From positions 62,001 through 126,000 of the forward strand of contig JAICTZ010000010.1 in NCBI GenBank assembly GCA_025936115.1: a stretch of 64,000 nucleotides of DNA, given 5' to 3'. Shown here piece after piece: positions 23,971 through 29,118 of this stretch; the first letter of the stretch is position 1, and every line of letters begins with the position of its first letter. The notes under the pieces were generated by a model. That model saw only the letters and a program-made list of their open reading frames with translations, did not search any database and had not been told where the DNA came from. This stretch comes from Polyangiaceae bacterium. GTDB taxonomy: Bacteria; Myxococcota_A; Polyangia; Polyangiales; Polyangiaceae. The position numbers and the translations under genes were made by a program.

Positions 23971-25002
23971 TCATTTCAGGCCGCGGCGTTCGAGCGCTGC
24001 TCGCAGCGCCGGTTCGACGGCTGCCCGGATTTTTTCGTTGGCGTAGCCGACCCACGCGACGGGCGTGTCGACGTCGAGCGGCGCGTCGAGCGCCCCGCCG
24101 TCGGGCGCCGTCACGATGACGCCCGCTTCCTCGGCAATGATGAGCGTGCACACGTCGTACGGGTGGCACGAAAGCGCCTTCGGCTCCCCGCGTTCAGCCA
24201 GCAAGCGATCGAAGAGCGGCCGCAAATCGGCGGTGAAGCGGTCGTGCCCCGCCATGAGCTCGTAGAGCTGGCCGCCGCTCGAGAGGTACTGGTCCTCGAA
24301 GCAGAGTGCACGGCCGGCCGGCGGCGGCCCGAGCACGGCGCGCACGATCTCTTCGTCGAGCGCGGCGATGGCGTCGCGCGCGCCGGGAAAAAAGCGGCTC
24401 AACATGGCAAACCCGTGGGCGATGCCGTCGGCGCGCGAGGGCCCGAGCGTGATGGGCGCGCTCGTGCCGCGGAGGACGTCGACGCGCGTCGCCGAAAAGC
24501 CGCGGCCGCGCGCCGCCCAGAGCTCGTCGGCGAGGTATTGCTTCACCGTCGGGATTTCCGTCTGCACCGCGAGCACGATGTCGGAGAGCTTCGGCGCGGG
24601 GCCGTTCGGCGCGATGCCCGTGAGCACCCACGCGCTGCGCTTCTGGTACATGAGACCGCGCGTGCCATCGATGGGATCGACGATGACGACGTAGCGCGCG
24701 CTCGCGGCGTCGCGCCCCCGCGGCAACACCACGCGTCCGCCCGGCAAGCCTTCGGCGACGAGCACGAGCCCGCCGAGCGCCGCCGCGTGTGCACCGAGCT
24801 CCTCGAGCAGCACTTCCTCGCTCACGCGATCGATGCCGTAAATGGTGTCGCCACCGTCGTCCCCGGCGACGCCCGCGAGCTCGTCGCTCGTGCGCTCGCG
24901 AAATGCCTTTACGACCGCATCCCGGATCCGCCGGTGCAGACGCTGCACTAGCGGTAGAAGCTCGCGCTCGGCCGCCTCGACGAACGCTCGATCGCCGCTC
25001 AT
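23971..25002 (-). CDS. Inositol monophosphatase-family phosphatase
   Basis: A 343-residue protein with the Mg-dependent phosphatase motif VVIVDPIDGTRGLMYQKRSA near residue 115 and an upstream GDDGGDTIYGIDRVSEEVLL that takes the place of the usual first metal motif. A second Asp motif near the C-terminus (CHPYDVCTLIIAEEAGVIVT) is typical of the family. It is longer than standard inositol monophosphatases (about 260 residues), so fructose-1,6-bisphosphatase-like or another sugar-phosphate specificity is possible. It is the first gene of the minus-strand run that continues with galE. Confidence 0.85.
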   Translation of the reverse strand: MSGDRAFVEAAERELLPLVQRLHRRIRDAVVKAFRERTSDELAGVAGDDGGDTIYGIDRVSEEVLLEELGAHAAALGGLVLVAEGLPGGRVVLPRGRDAASARYVVIVDPIDGTRGLMYQKRSAWVLTGIAPNGPAPKLSDIVLAVQTEIPTVKQYLADELWAARGRGFSATRVDVLRGTSAPITLGPSRADGIAHGFAMLSRFFPGARDAIAALDEEIVRAVLGPPPAGRALCFEDQYLSSGGQLYELMAGHDRFTADLRPLFDRLLAERGEPKALSCHPYDVCTLIIAEEAGVIVTAPDGGALDAPLDVDTPVAWVGYANEKIRAAVEPALRAALERRGLK

Positions 25003-25217
25003 GCCGGCCTTTTACCATGGTGAGGCGCACCCTGGCCTGAGCTCGTGCAGAGCGCCGCAGGCAAGATGACGAGGCTTTCCGACGCCGCCCGAACCCGTTA
25101 GGGTGCGCGGCGTATGCACGCCCGGCTGGAGGCCGCACTCTCGAATACACGCGGACGTTGGCCGCTCGTTGCCGCTCGGCTCAAGCCGGCCCTGCGCGCG
25201 AGGCCGGCTTCGTCGGC

Positions 25218-26936
25218 GTGAACGCGCCCTCGCTCGCTTGTCCGCACCGGCCGCGCTGCCCCGGTTGCCCCTTGCTCGAGCTCTCCTACCCGGCGCAGCT
25301 CGAGCAAAAGAGCTCAACGCTCGCCCGCGCGCTCGCGCTCTATCCGGTGCTCGCGGGGCACACGCTCGAGGCTGCCGTCGCTGCCGAGCCGGTCACGGCG
25401 TTTCGCGTGCGCACGAAGCTCGTCGTCGCCGGGAGCGCGCTCGGGCTCTTTGCGCGCGCTACGCACGACGTGGTCGATATTCCCGGCTGCCTCGTGCAAC
25501 GACCGCGACTCAAGGCGGTACTCGACGCGCTCAGAGCGGCGCTGCCCCTGCCCGGCCCCGTTTCGTCGCTCGATTTGCGGGAAGCGGACGAAGGGGTGCT
25601 CGTCACGGCCGCCGTGCCGCCGAGCTTCCCGCCGCGTGAGCGTCAGGCGCTGGCGGAGCGCATTGCCGCGCTCGCGCCGCACGTCGCGAGCGTCGCCGTG
25701 AGCACGCGCGAGAGTGACGCCCCACAGCTGCTCGGTGGCGGCCTGGAAGTGCTCGTCGGTCCGGCCGAGCTCCGTCACCGCCCCGATCCGGACGCTCCCT
25801 GGCACTACGCGGCGCATGGCGCTTTCGTTCAAGCCCACGCCGGGCAGCTCGTTCGCTTGCACGCGGCCGTCGAAGCCGCGCTCACGCAGCACGGCGCGCC
25901 GGCGCGTTCGCTCGCGGGCCTCGGCGTACTCGAGCTCTATGCCGGCTCCGGCGCGCTCGCGCTGCGGCTGGCTGCACACGGCGCGCGCGTGACGCTCGTC
26001 GAGAGCTTCGCCCCTGCCGTGCAGCGCGCAGAGAGCGCCGCTCGCGAGCAAGGACTCGAGCTCGAGACGCTCACCGCCGACGCCGGCGACGCACTCGCGC
26101 TTCTCGCGCGCGAAGGAGCGCGCTTCGATGCCGTCATCGTCGACCCGCCGCGCCGCGGCCTCACTCCCGACGTTCGACGGTTGATCGCGGCGCTCGCGCC
26201 CGAGCGCTTGATTTACGTGTCGTGCGCGCCCGAGACGCTCGCACGCGACGCCGCGGATTTTGCCCGGCTCGGCTACGCGCTCGCCCATGCCACGCCGTTC
26301 GACATGATTCCGCAGACGGACGCGGTCGAAACGCTCGCCCGCTTCGTGCGGCGGGAGCCGCCCGCTCCGAGCGTGCTCGCCGAGGACGCGACGTTCATCG
26401 CCATCGACAAGCCGCCGCACGCACGCGCCGGCGCGCCTGGCGGCGCGGAACACGCCGTCCCGCTCGCCGTACTCGACACGCCGGCGAGCGGCGTCTGCAT
26501 TTTCGCGAAAACGCCGGATTCGGCGCGTTCCCTCGAGGCCGCGCTGCGCAACGCGACCGCGGAGTACGTCCTGCTCGCGCGCGGCATCGTCCACGCGCGC
26601 GGCACGTTGTTGCTCGGGGGACGTAAATCCAACACCCGCGTTCGTTACGAGCGCACGCGCATCGTCGCCGGACACTCCTTGCTCAGCGTCCGGGCGGCCC
26701 CGAGTGACGCCCCGATGCTCACACGCGCGCTCGCGCGTATCGGCCACCCCGTGCTCGGCGACGCCCGTCACGGCGACCCTCGCTCGAACGCCCATTTTTC
26801 GCACCGTTACGGCCTCGATCGCGCATTTTTTCACCTGAGCACGCTCGAGCTCACGCTCCCGGTCGGCAAAAGATCGCGAGTCGAGTCGCCGTTAGCGCCG
26901 GATCTACGAGCCGTGCTCGGGATGATGGAGCACTAG
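25218..26936 (+). CDS. Fusion of TrmA/RlmD-type m5U methyltransferase and RluA-like pseudouridine synthase domain
   Basis: The track opens at a TTG (25158); GTG at 25218 (VNAPSLACPHRPRC) is preferred, giving 572 residues. The N-terminal two-thirds are an Fe-S uridine-C5 methyltransferase: CPHRPRCPGC plus a later IPGC supply four Cys, AHGAFVQAHAGQ matches the FFQ-N region, LELYAGSGALALRLAAHGA is the SAM motif, and DPPRRGL with VSCAPETLARD carries the catalytic Cys. Residues about 395-572 look like RluA: DATFIAIDKPPHARAG, AVLDTPASGVCIFAKT (catalytic Asp kept, HR of HRLD lost) and RIGHPVLGDARHGD. The TGRTHQIR motif is missing, so activity of this half is uncertain. Confidence 0.88.
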   Translation: MNAPSLACPHRPRCPGCPLLELSYPAQLEQKSSTLARALALYPVLAGHTLEAAVAAEPVTAFRVRTKLVVAGSALGLFARATHDVVDIPGCLVQRPRLKAVLDALRAALPLPGPVSSLDLREADEGVLVTAAVPPSFPPRERQALAERIAALAPHVASVAVSTRESDAPQLLGGGLEVLVGPAELRHRPDPDAPWHYAAHGAFVQAHAGQLVRLHAAVEAALTQHGAPARSLAGLGVLELYAGSGALALRLAAHGARVTLVESFAPAVQRAESAAREQGLELETLTADAGDALALLAREGARFDAVIVDPPRRGLTPDVRRLIAALAPERLIYVSCAPETLARDAADFARLGYALAHATPFDMIPQTDAVETLARFVRREPPAPSVLAEDATFIAIDKPPHARAGAPGGAEHAVPLAVLDTPASGVCIFAKTPDSARSLEAALRNATAEYVLLARGIVHARGTLLLGGRKSNTRVRYERTRIVAGHSLLSVRAAPSDAPMLTRALARIGHPVLGDARHGDPRSNAHFSHRYGLDRAFFHLSTLELTLPVGKRSRVESPLAPDLRAVLGMMEH

Positions 26937-26970: not shown

Positions 26971-27531
26971 TTACAACGTCACGAGACCACGCTGCGCAGC
27001 CAGCAAAATCGCGCCAACGTGCACGCCGTGCGTGATTTCGCCGCTCTCGATCAGACCGAGGACGCGCCGGCACGGCACGCGCACGACGTCGATGTCTTCG
27101 CTCTCGTCGAGCGCACGCGTGCCCGTGGGCTCGGCGCCGAGCGCGCAGAAAAAGTGGGCGCGCACCGTCTGGCGCGACGGCTCGGTGGCAAAAGCCGCAA
27201 TCGCCTGCCAGTGCGCCGCAAGATAGCCGGTCTCCTCGCAGAGCTCGCGCCGCGCCGCGAGGAGCGGCTCCTCGCCCGGCTCCATCACGCCCGCGGGGAG
27301 CTCGAGACTATCGCCGCCGATGCCGTGGCGGTACTGCCGGACGAGCACCATTTCGTCTTCGCCCGTCACGCACACGACGCCGGCCCAATTCGGGGCTTCG
27401 ACCAGGTGAAATTCGCCCATCTCGCGGCCGTTGGCGAGTCGCACGCGATCTTCGTGCAGCGTGAGCCAGCGCCGCTCGACGAGCGTTCGGCGCTCGAGAA
27501 CTTGCCAAGGGGTGAGCGGGCGGTAGGTCAC
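26971..27531 (-). CDS. Nudix hydrolase, ADP-ribose pyrophosphatase-like
   Basis: GTG at 27531 ([20 protein letters not shown]) gives 186 residues; the ORF track begins earlier, inside the divergent gene. The Nudix box is complete, [20 protein letters not shown] plus TGY, and the N-terminal beta strands with [20 protein letters not shown] are typical of ADP-sugar pyrophosphatases. It sits between the two RNA-modification genes, convergent with the first (34 bp apart) and divergent from the second with only 15 bp between starts. Confidence 0.87.
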
Positions 27532-27546
27532 GGCCCGAGCGATAGC

Positions 27547-29118
27547 ATGCCGACGACCCCACGCGCGCCGAACCTCGACGATCCGGGCTTTACGCCGGGC
27601 GCCGCTCACTTCGAGGCGCTCTTCAGCGAGCTTCGCGCAGCGAGCCGCGAGGACGCACCGCGCATCGAACGCGTGCTCGCGCGCGGCGGCGAAGCGGCGC
27701 TCCGCGCCGTGCTCGCGCGGCTACCCCACGGCGCGTCGAGCGAGCGCGCGCGACTCGTCAGCATCCTCGGCCGCATCGGCGACGCCCGGGCGAGCGAGGC
27801 GCTGCGCGAGGCGCTTGCCGACGGCGACGAACGCGTGGCCCGTCGCGCCGCGAACGCGCTCGGCAAGCTCGATTTCGACCCGAAGAACGACGCCGCGCTC
27901 CGCGCCGCCTGGCGCGACGCCGGCACGCCGTTCCGCCGCTCGCTCGCCGAGGCGCTCGGCAAGGTGGGAAGCGCCGAAGCACGCGCGCTGCTCGAGGCCG
28001 AGCTCGCTCCTGATCCGGAGCTCGAGCGCATCGCGCGCCAAGCGCTCTTGGTGCTCGAACGCCGCCACAGCCGAGGGGGCGCGGGTGGGATCCGCATGAC
28101 GGCGCCGCTCGGCATCGCGTTGCCCATCGTGGCCGAGTGCCGCGCGGGCCTCGCCGAGATGCTCGCCGAGGAGCTCTGCGCGGTGGGCGCTGCACGCGCC
28201 GTTTCGCCCGCTTCCGTCCGAGTTCCATTCGCAGGCGCCCTCACCGAGCTCTTCGTCGCGCGCACGGCGCTCCGTTTCAGCGTGCGCGTCGAGCTGCCGA
28301 GGACGGACGATGCGGCGTTGCCCGAAGCGCTCGCGTTCGCGCTCTCGAGTGAACCCGCGAAGGCCGCCTTCGGCGCGTGGACGCAGGGTGCGGCGCGTTT
28401 TCGGCTGGGGTTCGCCGAGGGCGGCCACCAGCGTGCGCTCGTGTTTCGCAGCGTCGTGGCGCTGCGTACCCGCTGTCCGGAGCTCGTGAACGATCCGCGC
28501 GGCCCGAGCTGGGACGTGACGATCGCGCGGCGCACGAGCTCGCCGCACGTTCTGCTCACGCCGGTCGCCTTCGTCGATCCGAGGTTCGCCTACCGAAAGC
28601 GCGACGTCCGCGCGGCATCTCATCCAACGATCGCGGCCGCCCTTGCGCGTGCCGCCGGCGTGCAGCCGGACGACATCGTGTGGGATCCGTTCGTCGGCAG
28701 CGGGCTCGAGCTGATCGAGCGCGCGTTGCTCGGACCCTACCGCGCCCTCATCGGCAGCGACCTCGAGCCGGGAGCGCTCGAAGCCGCCCGCGAAAACCTG
28801 ACGGCCGCCGGCCTCCGCGCCGAGCTCCTCCGCGGCAACGCCACGACCCTCGAGCCCCCTCGCGTTTCACTCATTCTCACCAATCCCCCGATGGGACGGC
28901 GCCTCGTCCGCGATCGCACGCTCGCAGACCTGCTCGACGAGTTCGTGGCGCACGCGGCGCGCGTGCTCGCGCGCGGCGGGCGGCTGGTCTGGCTTTCACC
29001 CGGAGCGGAGCGGAGCGCCGCCACGGCGACCCGGGCAGGTTTTCGCGTCCTGCGCGGCCCGCGCGTCGACCTCGGCGGGTTCGAGGTCGAGCTGCAGACG
29101 TGCCGGCTCCCGGCGTAA
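27547..29118 (+). CDS. HEAT-repeat protein fused to RNA guanine-N2-methyltransferase-like domain
   Basis: The track starts at 27019, but ATG 27547 ([20 protein letters not shown]) clears the divergent Nudix gene and gives 523 residues. Residues about 25-180 are HEAT-type helical pairs ([40 protein letters not shown]). The middle part looks THUMP-like. The C-terminal 180 residues are a class I methyltransferase with [20 protein letters not shown], a [14 protein letters not shown] strand and [10 protein letters not shown], the NPPx of Trm14/RlmL-type N2-guanine enzymes with Met in place of the common Tyr. A tRNA or rRNA target is likely but unproven. Confidence 0.82.

Follow-up and report, generated by a model that had tools for sequence, protein, structure and literature searches.

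A Fe-S uridine-C5 methyltransferase fused to an RluA-type pseudouridine synthase domain with a decayed active site in a Polyangiaceae bacterium

Introduction

Pseudouridine synthases (PUS) of the RluA family employ three catalytic residues, Asp64, Tyr96 and Arg165 in RluA numbering. In Escherichia coli, RluA is annotated as acting on U746 of 23S rRNA and the uridine-C5 methyltransferase RlmC on U747, so that these two uridines are served by two separate enzymes. The E. coli RlmC lacks the TRAM domain (PMC5614603). It is an open question why bacteria retain enzymes of rRNA modification that can be deleted with hardly any effect; one of the proposed answers is that the proteins, not the marks alone, assist the folding of RNA. 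TruB and TrmA fold tRNA as chaperones independently of their catalysis (PMC11301382), and inactive variants of RlmB and RlmKL help the growth of an E. coli strain deprived of ten 23S rRNA modification enzymes, inactive RluC having given no such help in that strain (PMC11194073).

Here we analyze a gene in which a methyltransferase and a PUS domain are joined in one frame, found in a 64,000-nucleotide stretch of Polyangiaceae DNA (hereafter, the window). A first-pass annotation of the window, made from the sequence, had proposed such a fusion, suspected its second half of being degenerate, and offered two readings of the protein: an enzyme making both 5-methyluridine (m5U) and pseudouridine, or a methyltransferase whose RluA-like part only binds RNA.

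Results

The fused gene and its surroundings

The gene occupies positions 25218..26936 of the forward strand and encodes 572 amino acids plus a stop codon. Its start codon is GTG, with a TTG in frame at 25158 as the alternative. The product is a Fe-S uridine-C5 methyltransferase joined to a PUS fold of the RluA type. Judging from the orientation of its neighbors, the gene stands alone between an Inositol_P gene (23971-25002, reverse strand), from which it diverges, and a NUDIX gene (26971-27609, reverse strand), with which it converges. Coding periodicity is unbroken through both halves of the frame, with GC contents at the three codon positions of 0.82/0.54/0.83 in the methyltransferase half and 0.72/0.55/0.82 in the C-terminal half. 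All the motifs quoted in the first-pass annotation were located in the translation, namely, the four cysteines (8, 14, 17 and 91), DPPRRGL (309-315), VSCAPETLARD (334-344), AVLDTPASG (417-425) and IGHPVLGD (508-515), and alignments showed that the HR of HRLD and the TGRTHQIR motif are indeed absent, as it had stated.

Other composite genes for RNA modification are found in this genome. Two genes downstream of the fusion, the forward-strand frame 27019-29118 combines a HEAT-repeat domain with an RlmKL-like (UPF0020) methyltransferase. A further fusion, unrelated to the first and located outside the window (G000:C60:79693-81030; L048, L076), consists of one 578-residue frame in which an intact RluA-type PUS (PF00849, 85 bits) is followed by an RNA methyltransferase of the RlmI/PF10672 type (110 bits).

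The methyltransferase half

Residues 5-380 (25230..26357, forward strand) constitute a TRAM-less Fe-S uridine-C5 methyltransferase, as delineated with NCBIfam models, phmmer and Foldseek. This half matches the NCBIfam models of RlmD and RlmC with E-values of 2e-41 to 9e-38, the top score of the protein being 142 bits for TIGR00479 (RlmD/rumA), below the cut-off of 183.55; the RlmC model NF002910 scores 130.3 bits, with a cut-off of 558. PF05958 is detected at 42.9 bits, above its Pfam cut-off of 23, RumA is matched by phmmer at 2e-23, and the top Foldseek matches of the predicted structure are SpRlmCD (several entries with U747 RNA), RumA and TrmA. A Pfam match to the TRAM domain was not found in the fused protein. 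None of the NCBIfam equivalog cut-offs for RlmC, RlmD and TrmA is reached, so the target of the methyltransferase is not fixed by homology.

The residues implicated in catalysis align one by one with those of RlmD. Cys8, Cys14 and Cys17 (25239..25268, forward strand) correspond to RlmD Cys81, Cys87 and Cys90, and the fourth Fe-S cysteine, Cys91 (codon 25488-25490, forward strand), to Cys162, which gives the protein the four cysteines of the Fe-S RlmC/RlmD group and a predicted 4Fe-4S cluster; the Fe-S cysteines are kept in at least 92 of the 94 fused proteins that have an N-terminus. The catalytic Cys336 (26223..26225, forward strand; RlmD Cys389) and the general base Glu371 (26328..26330, forward strand; RlmD Glu424) are invariant in all 102 fused proteins collected, and the glutamine of the FVQ motif aligns with E. 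coli RlmD Gln265. By its catalytic Cys and Glu, its PF05958 score and its fold, the window protein is a member of the m5U methyltransferases (RlmC/RlmD/TrmA). Every catalytic residue tested is present in this half, an apparently intact enzyme predicted to methylate uridine in rRNA.

The genome encodes a second, TRAM-bearing methyltransferase (G000:C26) that scores 229-230 bits, above the RlmD cut-off, and a TrmFO that scores 505 bits, also above its cut-off. With the RlmD and TrmFO roles thus filled, the vacant role is that of RlmC at U747, an argument by elimination and not a proof. The TRAM-less architecture and this elimination point to U747 in helix 35 of 23S rRNA as probably the most likely substrate. 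For two of four fused relatives scanned, L006 and L062, the top-scoring model is one of RlmC.

The pseudouridine synthase half

Residues 385-572 (26370..26933, forward strand) form a domain of the RluA/TruC type, assigned from an AlphaFold2 model, Foldseek and the PF00849 scores of intact relatives. The window copy itself matches PF00849 at 21.1 bits, below the curated cut-off of 26.8, and the intact fused relatives at 57-85 bits, well above it. The AlphaFold2 model of this half (mean pLDDT 92.3, pTM 0.88), built from an alignment that includes ordinary RluA relatives from viral contigs, retrieves RluC (E-value 1e-14), RluD and RluA as the best Foldseek matches; in a full-length model, for which the alignment held only three fused sequences, the methyltransferase half is confident and the C-terminal half low-confidence. 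A profile of the intact fused PUS halves matches RluC, RluD and RluA in the PDB at 5e-37 to 2e-26. As modeled, the C-terminal half has the fold of the RluA catalytic domain, in agreement with the first-pass annotation, which had called it RluA-like and asked for a structure prediction.

Alignment of the active site shows what has been lost. Asp420 (26475..26477, forward strand; RluA Asp64) is retained within VLD, which stands in place of HRLD, the preceding His-Arg being gone, and Tyr450 (26565..26567, forward strand; RluA Tyr96) is retained as well. The GRTHQIR motif is replaced by SDAPMLT (residues 496-502; 26703..26723, forward strand), with Thr502 at the position of RluA Arg165. The Asp and Tyr of an active PUS are therefore present in the window copy but the Arg of GRTHQIR is absent, which bears out the earlier suspicion that the second half is degenerate. 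In the nearest relative, L100, which is 67% identical to the window protein, the Asp segment has also been lost. On these alignments, the PUS half of the window copy is probably non-catalytic, although residual pseudouridine activity is conceivable with Asp420 and Tyr450 kept.

Within the RluA family, models of TruC and RluC give the fused PUS halves higher scores than the RluA model does. On the TruC model, the window protein attains 49 bits and the intact fused relatives 65-99 bits, with a cut-off of 328. The genome additionally encodes a protein of the TruC type that is distinct from the fusion. In a tree of 62 triad-intact fused halves with the RluA-family proteins of E. coli and of the window's own genome, the fused halves are monophyletic (SH-aLRT 97) and lie toward TruC; this grouping suggests one fusion event.

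Distribution of the fusion

Searches of the phylum and the family yielded 102 distinct fused proteins, and a strong match (best E < 1e-50) is present in 89 of the 108 family genomes. The search for the same fusion in related genomes, called for in the first-pass annotation since the lack of fused homologues would have implied misassembly or chance, thus came out in favor of a genuine fusion, with both halves recognized by models or by fold. One further fused protein, L176 (G488:C97:27557-29239), with a decayed PUS half, lies outside the window's phylum; it comes from a phylum reached via a Geobacteraceae locus and is the one clear case in 247 genomes sampled. A search of plasmids recovered no fused methyltransferase/PUS protein. 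The architecture was also looked for in Pfam, NCBIfam and the PDB among domain databases, and no description of a fused m5U methyltransferase/PUS was found in the literature searched, the coverage of which was incomplete and included few subscription journals. On these comparisons the fusion is old, and it probably stems from a single event.

Recurrent decay of the PUS half

The PUS triad (Asp, Tyr and Arg) is intact in 66 of the 102 fused proteins and partly lost in 36, by a crude definition under which L059 and L104 pass and yet look decayed elsewhere. Mapped on the methyltransferase tree, triad loss requires about 15 changes, at least 8 of which are forced by well-supported branches. Among the 19 copies that are strongly decayed, the consensus residue of the intact proteins is retained at frequencies of 21% for Asp420, 5% for Tyr450, 5% for His499, 16% for Arg502 and 5% for His504, the low values for Asp, Tyr and Arg following partly from the way the set was defined, just as the Arg found at position 502 in 66 of 66 triad-intact relatives follows from the definition of that set. 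The same 19 copies keep Gly462, Gly514, Leu533, Arg535 and His539 without exception (100%) and Ser424, Gly425, Gly456, His486, His510 and Pro511 at 95%. In the window protein, the core that survives decay comprises IGHPVLGD (508-515) and LDRAFFH (533-539), at 26739..26834 of the forward strand.

Rates of evolution were compared between the two halves in hand-chosen pairs of sequences. In each of the 14 intact pairs the PUS half is the slower, with a ratio of PUS to methyltransferase dN of 0.13-0.77, and in 7 of the 10 decayed pairs it is the faster, with a ratio of 1.44-2.07; in the remaining three (L135/L136, L168/L169 and L018/L123), in which the changes are mostly from Asp to Glu, the PUS half is slow. 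The difference between decayed and intact pairs is significant with all ten decayed pairs included (Mann-Whitney, p = 0.006); the seven fast pairs, picked after the fact, give p = 0.0003. For the pair that includes the window protein (L001/L100), the ratio is 1.93 and the dN/dS of the PUS half is 0.52. In every pair, dN/dS is below 1 in both halves, these values being rough given the high dS of several pairs and possible errors in sequences from metagenome-assembled genomes. Together with the conserved core, dN/dS below 1 indicates that the decayed PUS domain has lost its catalytic constraint but not all constraint, evolving under relaxed yet purifying selection. Across the family, the alignments depict a PUS half that repeatedly loses its catalytic residues and yet is seldom, if ever, discarded.

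One clade of 11 proteins (L021, L022, L025, L133, L135, L136, L138, L140, L141, L168 and L169; support 100) has both active sites altered: Gln205 of the methyltransferase is changed to His, Asn or Arg in all 11, and in 8 the PUS Asp is replaced by Glu or Gly. A second fused copy is present in most of the respective genomes, an arrangement that suggests specialized paralogues.

Helix 35 in fusion-bearing genomes

The sequence of helix 35 of 23S rRNA was read in twelve genomes, of which nine carry the fusion. The nine genomes with the fusion and a readable 23S rRNA all have U at position 746 and at position 747, whether the PUS half is intact or decayed. A 23S rRNA match was not found in the window's own genome. 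In L095 (G112:C129), which belongs to the family but gave no strong match to the fused protein, position 746 is C (GCTGCAAAA loop), which sets it apart from the other eleven genomes; this is a single case, possibly mis-binned.

Discussion

The reading we favor, with fair though incomplete confidence, is that the window gene encodes an m5U methyltransferase of the RlmC type, with U747 of 23S rRNA as the probable target, derived from a bifunctional ancestor and carrying a PUS half that here serves as a non-catalytic RNA-binding or scaffold domain. The protein would be a SAM-dependent Fe-S uridine-C5 methyltransferase of the RlmC/RlmD/TrmA family, behind which a single ancient fusion would have placed a PUS of the TruC/RluA type, producing an ancestor with a pair of active sites for uridine. 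Neither site seems to have been lost in most relatives, whose copies would probably form m5U as well as pseudouridine. The site for pseudouridine has decayed in the window lineage, as it has repeatedly in others: here Arg and GRTHQIR are gone, and the nearest relative has lost Asp besides. What remains is the fold, probably retained as a putative domain without catalysis that serves the methyltransferase in RNA binding, in orienting or as a chaperone, a role that may be likened to RNA binding by TRAM in RlmD. The fusion, the intact methyltransferase residues, the RluA fold, the loss of PUS residues, its recurrence and the selection pattern (relaxed but still purifying) are computed results, whereas the U747 target, RNA binding by the dead domain and the activity of either half are inferences.

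Several other explanations deserve consideration. That the fusion results from an error of assembly or gene calling, or that its C-terminal half is untranslated read-through, could be imagined for a draft genome in 83 contigs; the 102 fused frames in many genomes, several of them complete and single-contig (e.g. G178 and G444), along with the continuous codon periodicity and a dN/dS below 1 in both halves, leave this with a negligible probability, and we rejected it in view of the numerous fused homologues. It is also rather improbable that the window protein is still bifunctional, its PUS half acting through a rearranged site with the retained Asp420 and Tyr450: a relative reported from the same genus, L006, is fully intact, but the window copy has lost all of GRTHQIR, including the RluA Arg165 equivalent, as well as the HR of HRLD, its nearest relative L100 lacks the Asp segment, and the rate of evolution of its PUS half is 1.93 times that of the methyltransferase half. 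Of the two readings in the first-pass annotation, one protein for m5U and pseudouridine is thus plausible for the family, where the triad persists in 66 of 102 members, but does not suit the window copy, whose PUS is probably dead. Thr502 in place of Arg, the loss of GRTHQIR, the loss of Asp in L100 and the roughly twofold faster PUS half make the other reading, in which the RluA part is degenerate and serves only to bind RNA, the better one for this gene, RNA binding itself being putative.

The substrates leave more room for alternatives. The methyltransferase half might have a different target, U1939 or U54 of tRNA, where it may be redundant with RlmD or TrmFO, and the highest-scoring NCBIfam model of the protein is indeed RlmD/rumA; its 142 bits are nevertheless short of the cut-off, whereas the other gene of the genome passes it and carries TRAM, and TrmFO is already present, so that we regard another site as unlikely. 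A proposal that extends the favored explanation, and is compatible with it, is that intact members modify neighboring uridines in helix 35, the RlmC-like half forming m5U747 and the RluA-like half pseudouridine 746. The E. coli annotations of RluA and RlmC, the elimination by RlmD and TrmFO, and the two uridines conserved in nine of nine fusion-bearing genomes (a permissive observation) speak for this; the position of the fused PUS half nearer to TruC than to RluA, on the tree and by model scores, speaks against it, as does U746 that is still U in G042 with its decayed PUS half, so that covariation lends no support. We consider this pairing of neighbors a doubtful one. Production of both m5U and pseudouridine by intact fused proteins, possibly on 23S rRNA positions 747 and 746, would likewise be a tentative suggestion. 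Given that the tree places the PUS half nearer to TruC, U746 was not adopted as a plain claim for the PUS target.

Under the favored reading of a methyltransferase with a dead PUS domain, evolution appears to have repeated the test of whether proteins, and not marks alone, assist RNA: lineage by lineage, PUS chemistry has been lost and the domain kept under purifying selection, in contrast to the Cys and Glu of the attached methyltransferase, which never change. If true, the repeated loss of the site with the fold retained would provide natural experiments that separate modification from a role of the PUS in RNA binding or assembly. Should the functional inferences hold, intact and decayed sisters could be compared in vitro and in culturable myxobacteria.

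Compared with known systems, the fusion is a variant of known enzymes, and a double enzyme for m5U and pseudouridine is without a described example in the literature searched. RlmC (RumB), the m5U747 enzyme of E. coli 23S rRNA, shares with the window protein the lack of TRAM, the Fe-S cysteines, the Cys nucleophile and the Glu base, but the window protein adds a C-terminal PUS domain and, at 130 of 558 bits, is far under the RlmC equivalog cut-offs. RlmD (RumA) and RlmCD, the best structural matches, align with it one to one in catalytic and Fe-S residues; in contrast to them, it has no N-terminal TRAM and a different C-terminal domain, and its genome encodes a separate RlmD. The C-terminal half has its fold and sequence in common with the TruC/RluA family, the fused halves falling on the TruC side; unlike members of that family, they sit behind a methyltransferase and are decayed in about a third of cases, including that of the window. 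The bifunctional 23S rRNA methyltransferase RlmKL likewise unites two catalytic domains for RNA modification in a single chain (PMC11194073), but both of its domains are methyltransferases, whereas one of the two in the fused protein is a PUS.
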